NCBI RefSeq assembly: GCF_000024925.1 | Contig: NC_013521.1 | Coordinates: 2,108,001 to 2,172,000 of the forward strand | Reading direction: 5' to 3' | Source of the DNA: Sanguibacter keddieii DSM 10542 | GTDB taxonomy: Bacteria; Actinomycetota; Actinomycetes; Actinomycetales; Cellulomonadaceae | DNA length: 64,000 bases | In this document: piece by piece, positions 57,618 to 64,000 of the stretch | Layout of the letters: each line of letters starts with the position of its first letter | How positions within the stretch are numbered: position 1 is the stretch's first letter | The notes under the pieces: generated by a model | The model's database searches: none | Told to the model about the DNA's origin: nothing | Seen by the model: the letters and a program-made list of their open reading frames with translations, nothing else | Position numbers and translations under genes: made by a program

Positions 57618-58421
57618 TCAGGCAGCCGGGACGGCGACCCCGTGCTTGATCATCGCGGTCTCGACGATCTTCAGGCCGTCGAGGCCCGGCATGCGGGAGA
57701 TGTGCTCGTCGAGCTTGCGGATCTCGCGCAGGCCCTCCTCGCCGGCGAACAGGTGACCCATCACGTGGGTGACCTCCTCGGGCTCCATGACGCTCGAGCC
57801 GACCGGCGCCCACGCGTTCTTCAGCGCGAAGCGGGCGAGCACCTGCGCCTTCTTGCTGCTGCCGAGGCGCTCGCGCGCCTGGGTGGCGTAGAAGGCGACG
57901 TGGCGGGCCTCCTGCTTGGCGATGCGCCGCAGCAGCACGGCCAGCACCGGGTGCTTCTCGAGGTCGGCGAGCCGGTTGTACGCCGCGACGGCCGACCACT
58001 CGTTGGCCGCGCCCCAGATCATGTGCACCGCGATGAAGTCCTTGCCCACCACGTTGCCGAGCATCGACTGCTTGATCGGGTCGAGGCGGTCCTTCCACCC
58101 GAGCTTGAGGCGCGTGGCCTTGAGCTCGTCGAAGTCCACGGTGATGCCGTGCGCGCCGAGGACCGCGGCCAGGGCCTCGCCGTGCCAGAACTCCTCGCGG
58201 TTCCACATCGTCATGAAGGCGCTGACGTCCGCCTCCTTGTGCGAGGGCGTGACGAGCAGGTCCCGCAGGTAGCAGACCGTGTGGTACTCGATGTCGCACA
58301 TGTAGCGCAGGCTGCGCAGCGTGGACTCGGGCAGCGGGGTGCGGCTGAACTCCTCGAAGTCGAGGTCGTCCCAGTTCACGCTGACTGACGTCGCGGTGTA
58401 CCTGTCGATGTCGAATGCCAT
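57618..58421 (-). CDS. ferritin-like diiron protein with intact metal ligands
   Basis: A 267-residue four-helix protein. Six predicted ligands are in place: E45 (in DIEYH), E77 and H80 (in REEFWHGEA), E141 (in ANEWS), E171 and H174 (in KQEARH). The EExxHG-type motif and overall layout resemble soluble acyl-ACP desaturases and aldehyde-deformylating oxygenases, so O2-dependent chemistry on an acyl, aldehyde or alkyl chain is likely. It starts 1 nt after the stop of the acyl reductase-HAD gene. It is clearly paralogous to the protein encoded at 60756-61562, which has lost four of these ligands. Confidence 0.8.
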   Translation of the reverse strand: MAFDIDRYTATSVSVNWDDLDFEEFSRTPLPESTLRSLRYMCDIEYHTVCYLRDLLVTPSHKEADVSAFMTMWNREEFWHGEALAAVLGAHGITVDFDELKATRLKLGWKDRLDPIKQSMLGNVVGKDFIAVHMIWGAANEWSAVAAYNRLADLEKHPVLAVLLRRIAKQEARHVAFYATQARERLGSSKKAQVLARFALKNAWAPVGSSVMEPEEVTHVMGHLFAGEEGLREIRKLDEHISRMPGLDGLKIVETAMIKHGVAVPAA

Positions 58422-58422
58422 G

Positions 58423-60759
58423 TCACGCACCATCCTTGAGGGTCACACGCTGGTCGTCGGGCACCGCGGCGGGCGTCGAGGGACGAGCCCGGCGCCTCCA
58501 GTCGAGCACGGCCCACTTCTTCTGCCGGGCGTGGCGGGACAGCTGGACGTCAGGGTTGACCGCGCTCGGGTTGCCGAGCAGGTCGAGCCACACGAGGTCG
58601 GCGTGGGAGTCGCCGTAGCCGTAGGACGCGGACAGGTCGAGGCCGTTCTGCTCCGCGTAGCGGCGCAGCCACGCGGCGCGGGCCTCGTCGACGAGCGGCG
58701 GGTCGGCGAGGTACCCGGTGAGGACGCCGTCGCGCTGGTGCATGCGCCCGGCCACGACCTCGTCGAACAGCGGCGCGAAGGGCGCGGCCATGAGGTCGAT
58801 GGTCCCGGTCACCAGGATGGTGCGGTGACCGGCGGCCCGGTGCTGCGCGACCCGCTCGAGCGCCTCGGGCAGCGCGGCGCGGCGCATGGCGCGGCCGAAA
58901 CGGCCCTGGACCTCGCGCTCGATCTCGGCGACCTTGAAGCCCTCGTAGCGACGCATGAAGGTGCGGATGAACTCGCCGCGGTCGCGGCGCTCCGCACGCC
59001 AGTAGCGGCGGCCCGAGAGCACCAGGTCGGCGAGGTCGTGCGCCGCGCGGCCCCGGGGCACCGTCCTGCTCCACAGCTGCAGGTACTGCTGGACCAGGTT
59101 CGCACCGAGGACGGTGCCCTCGAGGTCGAAGACGGCGACGACGTCGTCGCGCACCGGCAGGGCGCGCTCGGACCTCTCGCGTGCCGGCGGTCGCTTGCCG
59201 AAGGCGCGGGTGAGGGTCGTGACGGCCGGGAGGTGGATACCCTGGAAGTAGTGCTCCCAGTCGATCTCCGTGACGTCGAAGCCCTCGCCCTTGCGGACGT
59301 CCTCGGGCAGCGAGGCGAGCAGCGCCCGCGTGTTCGCGTCGTCGAAGATGATCTCCGTCTGCACGTAGGCGCGGTACAGCTCGGCGAAGGCGCGCAGGCG
59401 ACCCAGCCCACGCTTGTTCTTGCCGACCGTGTCGAGCCACCGGCGCGTGCGCGGGGTGGTCGGGAGCCGCTCGACGATGCGCTCGGCGTGCTCCACCTGG
59501 CGCTCGCGCCGTGCGAGGACGCGCTCGACCTTCTCGCCCCCGGGGAACCGCCACAGCGGGACGGCGATGTCGCCCTTCTCGTCGGGCAGCGGGTTGGCGG
59601 TGAAGTACTCGTTGACGTTCTCGTACATGCGGTGGAACGGCAGCGGGTTGGTCGTCCCGGACACCACCTGGAAGTACTCCGGCTCCCCCGCGACGGCCGG
59701 GCGCGCGGCCGCGGCGAGCGCGGCGTTGACCACGAAGTCCACCGGGATGATGTCGAGGACGGAGTCGGGCAGCCCCGGGAAGTCCTTCAGCTGGCCGCGG
59801 CCGTAGGCGATGATCAGCGGGTCGGCGACCTTGAAGCCGTCGATCCACCCCGGGAAGGGGTGGTGCAGGGCGCTCTCGATGATGGACGGTCGCACCACCG
59901 ACAGGCGGTGGCCGCTCTGCGCCCAGAGCTCCTCGGCGGCGCGCTCGGCGAAGGCCTTGGTGAGGGTGTAGACGTCGGTCCAGCCCAGGCTCTCGGCGCG
60001 CATCCGGCCGTAGTCGACGAGGCGCTCGCGCACCCACTCGGTGCGGGCCGTCTCGGCCAGGCGCGCGACCTGCTGCGGGCCGGCCTTGCCGTGCTGCGCC
60101 TTCGCGGTGCCCAGGTGGCGGCGCAGGGCCTCCGGCTGGCGGGACTCGAGCTCGACGCGCACCCGGGCCGACAGCGCGGCGTCGTGCTCGGCGCGCCAGT
60201 CGACCTCGTGCGTCAGCGACGCCTCGGGGGCGACGCCCTTGCGGATCCCGCCGACGTACGCGGTCGAGATGTGCACGACGTGCGGGTCGCTGCCGCTCGC
60301 GAGGAGCGCGCCGTACAGGCCGGTGGCGCCGCCGACGTTGGTCTCGAAGGCCTCGTCGATCGGCGGGTCGAAGGACACGGTCGAGGCGCTGTGCAGCACG
60401 ACGTCGATGTCGTCCGGGAGCGTCCCCACGTCGCTGAGCGAGCCCTCGTGGGCGGTCACGCGGCGCGCGAACTCGGTACGCGCGGCCTCGTCGCCGAGCT
60501 GCTCGCGCCACCGCGCGAAGACGGGCTTGCGGAGGATCCCGGTGAGGCGCTCCGCCGGGGTCTTGCTGCCCTTGCCGCGCACCAGGACGGTGATGCGCGT
60601 GCCCGGGTGGGAGATGAGCAGGCGCTCGATGATGGCCTGGCCGACGAACCCGGTGCCCCCGGTGACGAAGACGTGCTCGGTGGTGAGGGACAGTCCCGCC
60701 TCAGGAGCCAGCGCGGGCTCAGGGGTCGGTGCGTGCGGGGGTGCGGGCTCGTGGGTCAC
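58423..60759 (-). CDS. fatty acyl reductase (SDR) fused to a HAD-type phosphatase domain
   Basis: A 778-residue fusion. Residues 28-400 form an extended SDR of the fatty acyl-CoA reductase type: VFVTGGTGFVG, HSASTVSFDPP, VHISTAYVGG and the active-site Y-T-L-T-K near 261, then a Sterile-like helical part (RAFAELYRAYVQTE). Residues 540-750 are a HAD-IB hydrolase: VFDLEGT (nucleophile Asp near 541), VTGTIDLMA and GYGDSHADLVW. It would make fatty alcohol or aldehyde, with an associated phosphatase activity on a lipid phosphate possible. GTG start overlaps the stop of the upstream ferritin-like gene. Confidence 0.88.
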   Translation of the reverse strand: MTHEPAPPHAPTPEPALAPEAGLSLTTEHVFVTGGTGFVGQAIIERLLISHPGTRITVLVRGKGSKTPAERLTGILRKPVFARWREQLGDEAARTEFARRVTAHEGSLSDVGTLPDDIDVVLHSASTVSFDPPIDEAFETNVGGATGLYGALLASGSDPHVVHISTAYVGGIRKGVAPEASLTHEVDWRAEHDAALSARVRVELESRQPEALRRHLGTAKAQHGKAGPQQVARLAETARTEWVRERLVDYGRMRAESLGWTDVYTLTKAFAERAAEELWAQSGHRLSVVRPSIIESALHHPFPGWIDGFKVADPLIIAYGRGQLKDFPGLPDSVLDIIPVDFVVNAALAAAARPAVAGEPEYFQVVSGTTNPLPFHRMYENVNEYFTANPLPDEKGDIAVPLWRFPGGEKVERVLARRERQVEHAERIVERLPTTPRTRRWLDTVGKNKRGLGRLRAFAELYRAYVQTEIIFDDANTRALLASLPEDVRKGEGFDVTEIDWEHYFQGIHLPAVTTLTRAFGKRPPARERSERALPVRDDVVAVFDLEGTVLGANLVQQYLQLWSRTVPRGRAAHDLADLVLSGRRYWRAERRDRGEFIRTFMRRYEGFKVAEIEREVQGRFGRAMRRAALPEALERVAQHRAAGHRTILVTGTIDLMAAPFAPLFDEVVAGRMHQRDGVLTGYLADPPLVDEARAAWLRRYAEQNGLDLSASYGYGDSHADLVWLDLLGNPSAVNPDVQLSRHARQKKWAVLDWRRRARPSTPAAVPDDQRVTLKDGA

Positions 60760-61562
60760 AGCCGGGCAGCCTTTCGGAGGAGATCCAGCCCGGACTGGCC
60801 GGGGAGGGAGGAGACGTGCGAGTCGATCTCGAGGAGACGCTCGGGCTGTCCGGAGAAGAGGTAGGAGTAGTAGAACTCAGTCTCGCTGCGCGGTTCGGCA
60901 CGCGCGCCGATGGGCCAGGGGGTCTTGGCGAGCCGCCTGCGGGTGATCTTCCGCGCCCGGGGCGACTCGGCGAGCCGGAACCGGGCCTGCGCCTCGAAGA
61001 AGCTCAGCTGGCGCGCCTTGATCTCCAGGAACCTGTCGACGACCGCCACCAGCTCTGGGTGCGGGTCGAGCTCGGCCAGGCGCCGGTACGCGGCCTGGGT
61101 GAGCCACTCGTCGACGGTGCCCTGCGTCATGTGCACGGCGATCATCGGGACGCCGACGATGTTGGCGTAGACCGACTCGCGGATCGTCCGCTCGGTCGGT
61201 GTCCGCAGCGCGGAGCGGTCGGGCTCGGTGCCCTCCGGCTCGTGGGCCAGCAGGATCTGCGCGAGGGCGTCGGCGACCCAGAACTTCTCGAAGGCCCAGG
61301 TCACCAAGAATGCGGTGATCCGCGCATCTTTGTGGGTTGCCGTCACGAGCACGCTGCGCAGGTGCGTCATGGTCGAGCGCTCGACGACCTGGACGTACCG
61401 GAGGACGCGGAGGGTCTCTGCGGACAGCGGCTGGGAGCGGAAGGCGGCGAGGTCGATGACCTCTCGGTGGCTCCCTGCTGCGGTGCGGGCGTAGTCGCGC
61501 ACGTCGAAGTCCGGGGCCGGGAACCGGGCCTGATCCACGGACGAGTCCCGGGATTCCGACAT
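60756..61562 (-). CDS. ferritin-like protein with degenerate metal site
   Basis: A 268-residue paralogue of the protein at 57618-58421 with collinear helices (VLVTATHKDARITAFLVTWA and DEWLTQAAYRRLAEL align without gaps). Of six ligand positions, E61 and E152 remain, but the others are K93, V96, K182 and Q185, so it cannot hold a normal diiron centre. This pattern suggests a non-catalytic partner subunit. ATG 61562 has GAAGG upstream; it is the first gene of the minus-strand unit and overlaps the reductase gene by 4 nt. Confidence 0.78.
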   Translation of the reverse strand: MSESRDSSVDQARFPAPDFDVRDYARTAAGSHREVIDLAAFRSQPLSAETLRVLRYVQVVERSTMTHLRSVLVTATHKDARITAFLVTWAFEKFWVADALAQILLAHEPEGTEPDRSALRTPTERTIRESVYANIVGVPMIAVHMTQGTVDEWLTQAAYRRLAELDPHPELVAVVDRFLEIKARQLSFFEAQARFRLAESPRARKITRRRLAKTPWPIGARAEPRSETEFYYSYLFSGQPERLLEIDSHVSSLPGQSGLDLLRKAARL

Positions 61563-61611
61563 GCCTTCACCTTCCGTCAGGAGCATGATCTCAGCGGAGT
61601 CTACCGACCTT

Positions 61612-61630
61612 CGCTACGGTCGTCGTAGCG
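61612..61630. promoter_or_regulatory. operator of the divergent lipid-gene promoter
   Basis: CGCTACG-GTCGT-CGTAGCG is a perfect 7-bp inverted repeat immediately upstream of the -10 of the SDR gene and within the 81-bp gap to the divergent ferritin-like gene. A further GCGTACGC palindrome (61628-61635) overlaps it. TetR-family sites have this form. Confidence 0.6.
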
Positions 61631-61636
61631 TACGCT
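61631..61636 (+). promoter_or_regulatory. -10 element of a leaderless promoter (SDR gene)
   Basis: TACGCT is followed by 7 nt and ATG 61644. A repressor on the adjoining palindrome would occlude polymerase. Confidence 0.55.
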
Positions 61637-61643
61637 GTCCGCC

Positions 61644-62507
61644 ATGGCTACTGCTCTCATCACGGGCGGCACCTCCGGCATCGGCGCCGCGTTCGCCGAG
61701 GCGCTGGCTGCCCGTGGCGTCGACCTCGTCCTCGTGGCCCGAGACGAAGGACGCCTCACGGACTCCGCGACGAGACTGGCCTCCACCCACGGGATCACCG
61801 TCGACACCCTGCGCGCCGACCTTGCCGTCCGCGCCGACGTCGAGCGGGTCGCGGCACGGCTCGAGGACACGACGCGCCCGGTCGAGCTGCTCGTCAACAA
61901 CGCGGGGTCCGGCGTCCGCACCCCGCTCGTCTCCCGCGACGTGGCCTCGCACGACCTCGGCTTCGACGTCATGTGCCGCGCGGTGCTGGTCCTCGGCGGA
62001 GCCGCCGGCCGGGCCATGTCGGCCCGCGGCTCAGGCGCGATCATCAACGTGTCCAGCCTGCAGAGCCTGTTCACCACCGGCTCCTACGCCGCGATGAAGG
62101 CGTGGGTGACGTCGTACTCCCAGGGCCTCTCGGTCGAGCTGCACGGCACCGGCGTCACCGTGACCGCCGTGCTGCCCGGGTGGGTGCGCACCGACTGGCA
62201 CGCGCGCGACGGCGAGCGACGCAGCTCCGTGCCCGGCTGGCTGTGGACCGAACCAGCCGACGTGGCCCTCGCCGCGCTCCGCGACTCCGCCCGGGGACGG
62301 GTCGTCTCGGTCCCCTCCCGGCGCTACCGCGTCATCGGATGGCTCGCCCGGCACCTGCCGCGCGCGACGGTCCGGCAGATCTCGGGCAGAATCTCGTCGA
62401 GCAGACGGGACTCCCCGCCCGACACCAGCCCGCCCACCGCCAGCCCGCCCACCGCCAGCCCCGGCACCGACGCCCCCACCCGCACCGTACGAACCGAGGA
62501 CTCCTGA
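61644..62507 (+). CDS. short-chain dehydrogenase/reductase, lipid type
   Basis: A 287-residue classical SDR: ALITGGTSGIGAAFAEAL (cofactor loop), LLVNNAGSGVRTP, catalytic S in INVSSLQSLF and Y-A-A-M-K (YxxxK). The sequence after VLPGWVRTDWH and the C-terminal hydrophobic/basic segment resemble membrane-associated lipid ketoreductases. In this context it could reduce acyl- or alkyl-dihydroxyacetone phosphate. The final 35 residues are Pro/Ser/Thr repeats (P-P-T-A-S). Its TGA overlaps the acyltransferase ATG by one base. Confidence 0.85.
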   Translation: MATALITGGTSGIGAAFAEALAARGVDLVLVARDEGRLTDSATRLASTHGITVDTLRADLAVRADVERVAARLEDTTRPVELLVNNAGSGVRTPLVSRDVASHDLGFDVMCRAVLVLGGAAGRAMSARGSGAIINVSSLQSLFTTGSYAAMKAWVTSYSQGLSVELHGTGVTVTAVLPGWVRTDWHARDGERRSSVPGWLWTEPADVALAALRDSARGRVVSVPSRRYRVIGWLARHLPRATVRQISGRISSSRRDSPPDTSPPTASPPTASPGTDAPTRTVRTEDS

Positions 62508-63196
62508 TGGTCGACCGCTTCAGCTCCAAGGGTGTCGCAGCGGTCCGGTTCGTCGCGCAGCGCGGGTTCCTCAAACCCGTGGTGCGCTCGACCGTCAAGG
62601 TGTCGGTGCACGGTCAGGACCACCTGACGCACCTGCGCCCGCCGTTCATCGTCGTCGCGAACCACGCGAGCCACCTCGACGCGCCGCTGATCCTCGGGTG
62701 GCTGCCCCGCAAGCACTCCCGGTACCTCGCTGCCGGCGCGGCCGCCGACTACTTCTTCGACGTGTGGTGGCGCAAGGCGCTCACCACCCTCTTCTTCAGC
62801 GCCTTCGCGGTCGAGCGCAACGGTGAGCGCAAGCGCGGCGGGACGTCCCGCAAGCTGCTCGAGCGCGGCGTGCCGCTGCTCATCTTCCCCGAGGGCGGTC
62901 GGACCAAGTCCGGGGCGATCCGCCCCTTCAAGAAGGGCGCCGCGGCTCTCGCCATCGCCACCGAGGTGCCCTGCGTGCCCGTGGCGCTCGTCGGGACGGC
63001 GACGGCGATGCCGAGCGGCGTGAGCTGGCCCAAGCGCGGCCGGCCCCCGGTCGACGTCGTGTTCGGCGCGCCCATGCTCCCCCAGCCCGACGAGACCCCG
63101 GCGGAGTTCTCCGCCCGCCTCGCCGACGAGATCCACCGACTCCATGCCTCCGTGCCCTCCGGCGCCCTGGTGCACGTCCAGAAGGGAACACGATGA
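62507..63196 (+). CDS. 1-acylglycerol-3-phosphate acyltransferase-like (PlsC family)
   Basis: A 229-residue membrane-associated acyltransferase with the HX4D motif in NHASHLDAP, an acceptor-binding FPEGGRTKSG motif and the PCVPVALVG segment. It should transfer an acyl chain to a lysophosphatidate-like acceptor. The start overlaps the SDR stop (TGATG) and the stop overlaps the AGPS start (ATGA), so the three are co-translated. In an ether-lipid scheme it would acylate sn-2 of 1-alkylglycerol-3-phosphate. Confidence 0.9.
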   Translation: MVDRFSSKGVAAVRFVAQRGFLKPVVRSTVKVSVHGQDHLTHLRPPFIVVANHASHLDAPLILGWLPRKHSRYLAAGAAADYFFDVWWRKALTTLFFSAFAVERNGERKRGGTSRKLLERGVPLLIFPEGGRTKSGAIRPFKKGAAALAIATEVPCVPVALVGTATAMPSGVSWPKRGRPPVDVVFGAPMLPQPDETPAEFSARLADEIHRLHASVPSGALVHVQKGTR

Positions 63197-64000
63197 CCGA
63201 CACCGTCAAGCACATGAAGTGGTGGGGCTGGGGCAACGAGGGCGTGGGGTTCCACCACGAGGACAAGCCCGGCTTCGCCCCCTTCGTGGAGAAGGCTGTC
63301 GGGCTCGACCTCGGCTCCGCGACGCGCGCGAGCGAGCCGTCCTTCGAGGACGTCGACGTCCCGGCCAGCCGCGCGTCCGAGGGCTTCGTCCGTGAGCTCA
63401 CGGCCATCGTCGGCGGCGAGCACGTGACGACCGACGACATGGTCCGCGTCATCCATACCTACGGCAAGGGCCTGCGCGACCTCGTGCGCATCCGCGGGAA
63501 CCAGATCCTGCGCTCCCCCGACGTCGTCGTGTACCCGGCCGACGAGGCGCAGGTGCAGCGCGTGGTCGACGCGGCCGTCGCCGTCGACGCCGTGATCATC
63601 CCCTTCGGCGGGGGCAGCAACATCGCCGGCAGCCTCGAGCCGCTCCCCGCCGAGACCCGCACCGTGGTGTCCCTCGACCTCGGTCGGCTCCGCGAGGTCG
63701 TCGACATCGACGCCGACTCCGGCCTCGCCCGCGTGCAGGCCGGCGCCCAGGGCCCCGACCTCGAGGCGCAGCTCAACGCGAAGGGCTGGACCATCGGGCA
63801 CTTCCCCGACAGCTTCACGCACTCGACCGTCGGCGGCTGGGTCGCGACCCGCTCGACCGGCATGCAGTCCGACAAGTACGGCGACATCGCCGACATCGCC
63901 CGCGGCCTGCGCGTCGTGCGCCCCGGCGACGTCCTCGTGCTGCGCCCGCTGCCCAGCACGTCGAGCGGGCCGAGCGTCCGCGAGATGATCCTCGGCAGCG
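63193..64000 (+). CDS. agpS: alkyl-dihydroxyacetone-phosphate synthase (AGPS-like), 5' part
   Basis: 269 codons are visible before the window ends. It begins MTDTVKHMKWWGWGNE, the N-terminal hallmark of AGPS. A PCMH-type FAD domain follows: YPADEAQVQRVVDAA, IPFGGGSNIAG (FAD pyrophosphate loop), then GHFPDSFTHSTVGGWVATRS and GMQSDKYG, which correspond to the conserved AGPS FAD segment. AGPS exchanges the acyl group of acyl-DHAP for a fatty alcohol, forming the ether bond. The catalytic C-terminal part lies outside the window, so activity cannot be judged. Start overlaps the acyltransferase stop. Confidence 0.9.
   Translation, partial: MTDTVKHMKWWGWGNEGVGFHHEDKPGFAPFVEKAVGLDLGSATRASEPSFEDVDVPASRASEGFVRELTAIVGGEHVTTDDMVRVIHTYGKGLRDLVRIRGNQILRSPDVVVYPADEAQVQRVVDAAVAVDAVIIPFGGGSNIAGSLEPLPAETRTVVSLDLGRLREVVDIDADSGLARVQAGAQGPDLEAQLNAKGWTIGHFPDSFTHSTVGGWVATRSTGMQSDKYGDIADIARGLRVVRPGDVLVLRPLPSTSSGPSVREMILGS

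Follow-up and report, generated by a model that had tools for sequence, protein, structure and literature searches.

We analysed a cluster of six genes, here called A to F, at the right-hand end of a 64,000-nucleotide stretch of the Sanguibacter keddieii DSM 10542 genome (NC_013521.1, positions 2,108,001 to 2,172,000; the whole stretch is called the window below). From its sequence an earlier note had proposed a gene set for ether lipids, with a fatty acyl reductase (FAR) fused to a HAD phosphatase-like domain, two ferritin-like proteins, a short-chain dehydrogenase (SDR), a PlsC-like acyltransferase and a homologue of AGPS, and all six are indeed present (Table 1). The genes form two divergent arms with 57 nt between the start codons of C and D. 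The proposed coupling by overlaps of 4 nt or 1 nt was found at C/B (GTGA, 4 nt), E/F (ATGA, 4 nt) and D/E (one base, TGATG), but not at B/A, where the first ATG gives an overlap of 11 nt and an alternative ATG, matching most relatives, places the start 1 nt after the stop of B. The full-length product of gene F has 557 aa (L003:8194-9867), its stop codon lying 866 bases beyond the window end. Rfam and tRNA scans of the 64-kb window gave no matches.

Table 1: Genes and other features of the cluster (window positions unless marked L003; DHAP, dihydroxyacetone phosphate).
Feature	Position	Strand	Assignment
Gene A	57618..58433	-	ferritin-like protein with six diiron ligands (E49, E81, H84, E145, E175, H178); candidate desaturase
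Gene B	58423..60759	-	fusion of a fatty acyl reductase (NAD_binding_4, residues 32-346) with a HAD phosphatase-like domain (residues 542-723)
Gene C	60756..61586	-	paralogue of A with metal ligands lost; proposed metal-free partner
Palindrome CGCTACG-N5-CGTAGCG	61612..61630	.	candidate operator of the TetR encoded beyond AGPS
Gene D	61644..62507	+	classical short-chain dehydrogenase; proposed alkyl-DHAP reductase
Gene E	62507..63196	+	PlsC-type acyltransferase
Gene F	63193..64000	+	AGPS homologue, truncated by the window end; gene continues to L003:9867
TetR gene	L003:9967-10623 (outside the window)	opposite to F	regulator gene behind AGPS

Using gene A and six of its relatives as queries against a collection of named genomes we retained the best 80 of 332 relatives, a set skewed to the nearest kin of A, and the gene content of these 80 loci was determined by tblastn with the six proteins. 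All six genes are found together in 65 of the 80 loci, 30 of which also carry the TetR gene, while the remaining ones comprise three loci with A to E at contig edges, eight with only C and A, three with only A and one, from a short contig, with A, TetR and an A/C-like gene. Most of the 80 belong to the Microbacteriaceae (Salinibacterium, Rhodoglobus, Herbiconiux, Plantibacter, Agreia, Glaciihabitans and others), and complete loci outside this family were found in one Ruaniaceae, three Phytoactinopolyspora and two Streptomyces. The gene order is broken in L199 and L233, where the six genes are still together. Many actinobacteria from soil and plants thus retain the block. A second count covered 249 genomes of the family of G345, which we take to be the Microbacteriaceae since AGPS in its members G615 and G727 has the coordinates seen in the genomes of L207 (Agreia sp. 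Leaf210) and L216 (Agreia bicolorata), with thresholds of E <= 1e-40 for A and E <= 1e-120 for AGPS. Here A is present in 74 genomes, AGPS in 68 and both in 66, leaving eight with A alone and two with AGPS alone, the latter being assemblies of 85% and 77% completeness. In 65 of the 66 double-positive genomes both genes lie within 13 kb on one contig, and the co-occurrence has a Fisher value of 1.6e-48, which ignores kinship. On the complete loci and this linkage we reject the view that the genes are chance neighbours, and the conserved co-occurrence in actinobacteria that the earlier note had named as a check is thus seen in both counts.

The 269 residues of F inside the window match FAD_binding_4 (3e-33), and among solved relatives F is closest to Dictyostelium ADPS (7.9e-114) and guinea-pig AGPS (5.8e-84), with D-lactate dehydrogenase following as the next solved family at 1.8e-21. 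F is by sequence clearly a true AGPS relative, as had been proposed, since its full-length similarity to the solved AGPS proteins is far above that to the next FAD_binding_4 family. The motif SHHH[GA]VG, also present in the window's own protein, and the motif PY[LIM]RD occur in 65 of 65 complete loci and a Tyr motif in 59; we take this His cluster and the Arg/Tyr motifs to be the active-site residues of AGPS. A loss of catalytic residues in the part beyond position 64000, which would have spoken against the assignment, is therefore not observed in any of the complete loci. In B, Pfam matches to NAD_binding_4 (1.2e-45) and HAD (1.6e-31) were obtained, with Sterile under its cut-off, and the solved fatty acyl-CoA reductase 7eoz is matched at 2.6e-46. 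The FAR motifs TGxxGFxG and YxxxK are kept in 65 and 64 of the 65 complete loci. Motif I of the HAD domain reads DxE in 63 of 65 and DxD in none, so its activity is unsure. D matches adh_short (8.2e-35) and shows YxxxK in 64 of 68 loci by pattern and in the other four by visual reading. For E we found the Pfam family Acyltransferase (7.4e-23), the PlsC structure 5kym (5.6e-14) and, in the complete loci, HX4D (64/65) and PEG[GT]R (61/65). E, a PlsC-type enzyme with HX4D, may acylate DHAP instead of the sn-2 position, and the pathway roles of both D and E are putative.

With the conserved unit and F as a true AGPS relative, the proposal of an ether-lipid cluster is well backed, and the cluster very probably represents a conserved AGPS-type ether-lipid locus. 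It would be quite surprising if F, though an AGPS-like flavoprotein, used a different substrate and the cluster served some other purpose such as wax or glycolipid modification. Relatives of B and E do occur phylum-wide in another setting, a module of FAR-HAD, zinc alcohol dehydrogenase, LarA-like protein (Lar_N) and PlsC (e.g. L140:6148-12304 and others among L126-L156): among 29 FAR-HAD loci drawn from 93 other genomes with a match, in other Actinomycetota, 24 have all three partners and only 2 have AGPS in the stretch. This module resembles the window in its FAR-HAD (up to 51% identical) and PlsC (up to 55%) but differs from it in having no A or C at E <= 1e-4. AGPS homologues are known in Actinobacteria, and the presence of ether-lipid gene homologues need not imply that ether lipids are made, according to the available part of PMC11868695; the different-substrate proposal is, however, opposed by the distance between F and the next solved family, by the invariant motifs and by the neighbourhood of F, where genes for an alcohol source, an acyltransferase and a reductase are arranged similarly to the AGPS operon described for Myxococcus in the accessible text of PMC9131029. 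The nearest AGPS outside the window in our phylum sample has 57-58% identity and adjoins a PlsC gene in G501 and G458 (L117:7096-10653 and L118:4411-6781), two genomes of another family with no FAR-HAD nearby; in G501 (L117) an extended SDR also stands beside AGPS. A separate AGPS-like protein, 34-39% identical to that of the window, is encoded at G388:C2:320541-322121 and is common in other actinobacterial genomes of the phylum sample, and by its sequence it appears to be a second AGPS type.

The palindrome between C and D goes along with the TetR gene. It is found no more than 150 bp from gene D in 25 of the 30 complete loci with TetR and in one of the 35 without a TetR match, and its density is 30 sites in 609 kb of TetR loci versus one in 647 kb of the other loci. 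In the exception, L173, the contig ends 331 bases from AGPS, so that a TetR gene may be located beyond it. In four Plantibacter loci the palindrome stands just before the TetR gene instead, while L162 has it in both places and L205 in neither. The TetR adjoining F would thus control both divergent arms via this palindrome.

A and C are paralogues (36% identical) with a different fate of their metal sites. All six diiron ligands of A, arranged in two Glu...ExxH sets, are kept in 81 of 81 copies, whereas C keeps E49 in 78 of 78 copies and has lost E81, H84 and E175 in all of them. The description as a diiron pair has therefore to be corrected, as only A is a diiron protein. In C, Lys stands at position 81 in 73 and at position 175 in 75 of the 78 copies, position 84 is Ile, Leu, Val or Met in 77, and in the window's C the residues aligned with E81, H84, E175 and H178 of A are K, V, K and Q. 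The lysines conserved at the lost ligand sites suggest selective maintenance of C as a metal-free partner. In nearly all copies of C (60756-61586 in the window) they take the place of two Glu ligands, as if filling an empty metal site.

Pfam places A in no family, with Rubrerythrin and FA_desaturase_2 matched only below the cut-off (19.5 bits versus a gathering cut-off of 22.7 for the latter), and C has no Pfam match. The AlphaFold model of A (pLDDT 87) is nearest to the solved delta-6 acyl carrier protein (acyl-ACP) desaturase 7t63 (E 2.3e-4, TM 0.63), R2lox being next after the acyl-ACP desaturases and mycobacterial DesA2 following at rank 31. A sequence profile search with A was headed by a designed helix bundle (6.3e-9), with DesA2 as the best natural protein (1.4e-5). 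For the model of C (pLDDT 88) the best match is R2lox (E 1.3e-2), and there is none at E <= 0.001. Soluble acyl-ACP desaturases, DesA2 and R2lox thus resemble A in predicted fold and diiron ligand pattern, while A differs from them in staying under the Pfam cut-off and in its tandem with a ligand-less paralogue. A plasmanyl desaturase has to use O2 to remove hydrogen from an alkyl chain. Judged from its model, A looks suited to this chemistry, with a plasmanyl lipid as candidate substrate.

While gene content, conservation, linkage, motifs, the lost ligands of C, predicted folds and the joint occurrence of palindrome and TetR are observations, we infer the following reactions, their order and a complex of A with C, and the desaturation step is the most inferential of all. 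In B the FAR domain would convert an activated fatty acid into the fatty alcohol, acyl-DHAP would be formed by E or by a housekeeping acyltransferase of PlsC type, F would swap the acyl chain for the fatty alcohol and D would reduce the keto group, followed by sn-2 acylation through E or a core enzyme. Finally A, as a soluble diiron protein similar to acyl-ACP desaturases, would together with the metal-free C perform an O2-dependent desaturation of the first C-C bond of the alkyl chain, giving the vinyl ether.

Similar activities are known from other systems. As far as the accessible text of PMC9131029 describes it, the Myxococcus xanthus operon MXAN_1676-1674 resembles the window in combining AGPS, FAR, a GNPAT-like acyltransferase and a reductase-type protein, and together with CarF it leads to a plasmalogen made with O2. 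In the window, by contrast, FAR and HAD make up a single fusion protein, PlsC and a classical SDR are each encoded by their own gene, and the ferritin-like pair stands in the place of CarF, an unlinked membrane enzyme in Myxococcus. The activities of the animal pathway with FAR1, GNPAT, AGPS, acyl-DHAP reductase and PEDS1 (again after the available part of PMC9131029) can likewise be assigned to B, E, F and D, but none of the six proteins is PEDS1-like and A is a predicted soluble four-helix diiron protein. Two vinyl-ether routes are named in the parts available of PMC9131029 and PMC9702350, the membrane enzyme CarF/PEDS1 with O2 and the anaerobic PlsA/PlsR, the latter reducing finished diacyl lipids without DHAP or O2, with an end product that may be common with the window (PMC9702350). 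No match to PF10520 (CarF/PEDS1) was found in the six proteins, F being scanned as its 269 window residues. PF09989, which we take to be the PlsA domain, was found in 0 of 21 genomes and in 4 of 14 controls, and on these counts the anaerobic PlsA route was rejected. We regard the cluster as a variant of the AGPS-type pathway outside the PEDS1, PlsA and acyl-ACP desaturase families. An O2-dependent step distinct from CarF/PEDS1 and PlsA, as the earlier note had it, is plausible and gains from the similarity of the A model to acyl-ACP desaturases; the step itself is a prediction. No publication describing this cluster or a ferritin-like plasmanyl desaturase was found, with most subscription journals outside the search.

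That A together with C makes the vinyl ether is our best single guess, to which we give an even chance. The wider proposal, that A and C form a third and independent enzyme for plasmalogen formation, a soluble plasmanyl desaturase of ferritin fold with one diiron and one conserved metal-free subunit that would be the source of the dimethylacetals (DMA) of Microbacteriaceae, we put forward more tentatively, at slightly below even. The Subtercola and Agreia strains for which such acetals have been published are aerobes. In the available text of PMC5945732, four Subtercola species contain i-16:0 DMA (7-17%) and ai-15:0 DMA (3-11%), Agreia contains only i-15:0 DMA at 4% at most, and Frondihabitans has none. 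According to the part available of PMC12823222, an anteiso-15:0 aldehyde/DMA peak occurs in Frigoribacterium adelgis D8, which was grown aerobically, and in F. faeni but not in two other species. Of the acetal-reporting genera, Agreia and Frigoribacterium have cluster loci in our collection, namely Agreia bicolorata (L216) and two Frigoribacterium-labelled metagenome-assembled genomes (L202 and L213). We found no publication linking Cellulomonas with dimethylacetal. A review describes the plasmalogens of myxobacteria as an exception among aerobic bacteria (PMC9131029).

The same pair could act on a different substrate. The alkane genes of cyanobacteria likewise combine a FAR gene with one for a small ferritin-like protein, and by this analogy A/C might act on the fatty aldehyde or alcohol of B, removing the aldehyde carbon with O2 in the manner of cyanobacterial aldehyde-deformylating oxygenase or clearing leaked aldehyde, and the published acetals would come from free aldehydes. 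We consider this improbable: it gives no reason for the linkage of AGPS, SDR and PlsC, the fold search with A is headed by desaturases and R2lox, the Pfam search with A up to E 0.1 shows no aldehyde-decarbonylase family, and two genomes with the pair only, G345 and G388, have no FAR-HAD at E <= 1e-30, although the listing of the Frigoribacterium peak as aldehyde/DMA (in the available text of PMC12823222) would agree with it.

Somewhat easier to imagine, though still unlikely, is that the cluster makes plain alkyl-ether lipids and A/C modifies another chain, by mid-chain desaturation or hydroxylation of acyl-ACP or of an alkyl or acyl chain, also in cells without alkyl ethers. The predicted fold of A, nearest to mid-chain acyl-ACP desaturases, would agree with this, as would the pair kept without AGPS in one clade (see below) and the single A homologues of other Actinomycetota: A matches occur in 24 of 396 genomes of the phylum sample, and the stretches fetched around the A homologues of the 23 other genomes contain neither FAR-HAD nor AGPS. 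Against it stand the nearly constant joint presence of A and AGPS in the 249 genomes, the dimethylacetals recorded in two genera with cluster loci (in the accessible parts of the papers) and the residues Ala148 and Gln174, which are found in 81 of 81 copies of A while most of the distant single homologues differ at 148.

Several observations weigh against a vinyl-ether role of A and C, the main one being a clade that keeps the pair without the other genes. Nine rows of a 90-row tree (two Leifsonia, Glaciibacter, four Agromyces, G345 and G388) have only C and A, without B, D, E and F beside them. These rows group as a single clade (100/99) inside the cluster-bearing ones, which points to one probable loss of the other four genes. 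Apart from distant flavoenzymes, seven of the eight pair-only genomes searched (the set excludes that of L219) lack AGPS, and G388 has one of 37%. Either the pair has a use independent of alkyl ethers, or it persists as a relic whose ligands are all intact. The structural match of A is weak too, a single one reaching E <= 0.001 and with a root-mean-square deviation of 6.5. A genome search with PF10520 was positive in 0 of 21 genomes but also in 0 of 14 controls, so that absence of CarF/PEDS1 is not demonstrated. Acetals can also arise from free aldehydes; on the other hand, fatty-acid identification libraries such as MIDI may not name acetals. Loci with the cluster (L175, L176 and L187) come from strains of Herbiconiux oxytropis, gentiana and daphne, for which the main text of PMC10011130, based on MIDI with the ACTIN1 library, gives no DMA or acetal. 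In the available text of PMC10713820 neither is mentioned for a new Salinibacterium species, a comparison at genus level with its own genome outside it, and the same is true in PMC7033078 for Lacisediminihabitans profunda, whose own genome is likewise outside our comparison. Finally, disruption of the AGPS gene in Myxococcus cut the ether lipids only slightly, ElbD being the main route as far as PMC9131029 is available.

The pair-only loci of this clade are L189, L198, L215, L219, L220, L222, L227, L034 and L035, and in L035 the pth and mfd genes adjoin the pair. A pair-only locus from Naasia (L180) stands elsewhere in the tree, with a 72% AGPS elsewhere in the genome, and A occurs together with AGPS in G678, which belongs to the genus group of G345 and G388. 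The available text of PMC10713820 mentions no DMA or acetal for a new Agromyces species either, its own genome again being outside the comparison.

The cluster supplies candidate genes for the acetals of vinyl-ether type reported in Microbacteriaceae, and the vinyl-ether question becomes testable by single deletions. If the pair is indeed the desaturase, an enzyme of a different fold would be added, together with a likely regulator and operator, and the cluster would offer a small movable gene set for ether-lipid production in a laboratory host.

As for its origin, gene A was found in only one of 121 genomes of the window's own family, and in the 90-row tree the window's A lies within a set of 17 rows from Salinibacterium, Microbacterium, Rhodoglobus and others (99/98, the bootstrap being not fully settled). 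The same-genus genome G019 shares the flanks, namely GH3 (88%), a DUF1801-like gene (82%), an FMN-reductase-like gene (87%) and a second TetR (84%), where the DUF1801-like and FMN-reductase-like names are our own labels. The distance from GH3 to the DUF1801-like gene is about 3 kb in G019 and about 11 kb in the window genome. Because A is rare in its own family, the window's A nests in the Microbacteriaceae and the flanks shared with G019 stand closer together there, the cluster was most likely gained by transfer; on the rarity and the nesting we reject a trait inherited within the window's own lineage. We therefore see a horizontally moving locus that would make ether-linked glycerolipids under O2, most likely plasmalogens. 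Between TetR and the conserved right flank lie a solute-binding lipoprotein and an AraC-like gene (L003:11306-13333). Five genomes of the same genus gave no match to the lipoprotein at E <= 1e-30, and the acquired segment may thus exceed the lipid cluster. Further to the right of the cluster (L003:17318-18948) another PlsC-type acyltransferase frame is located beside a CdsA-like frame, both named by eye.

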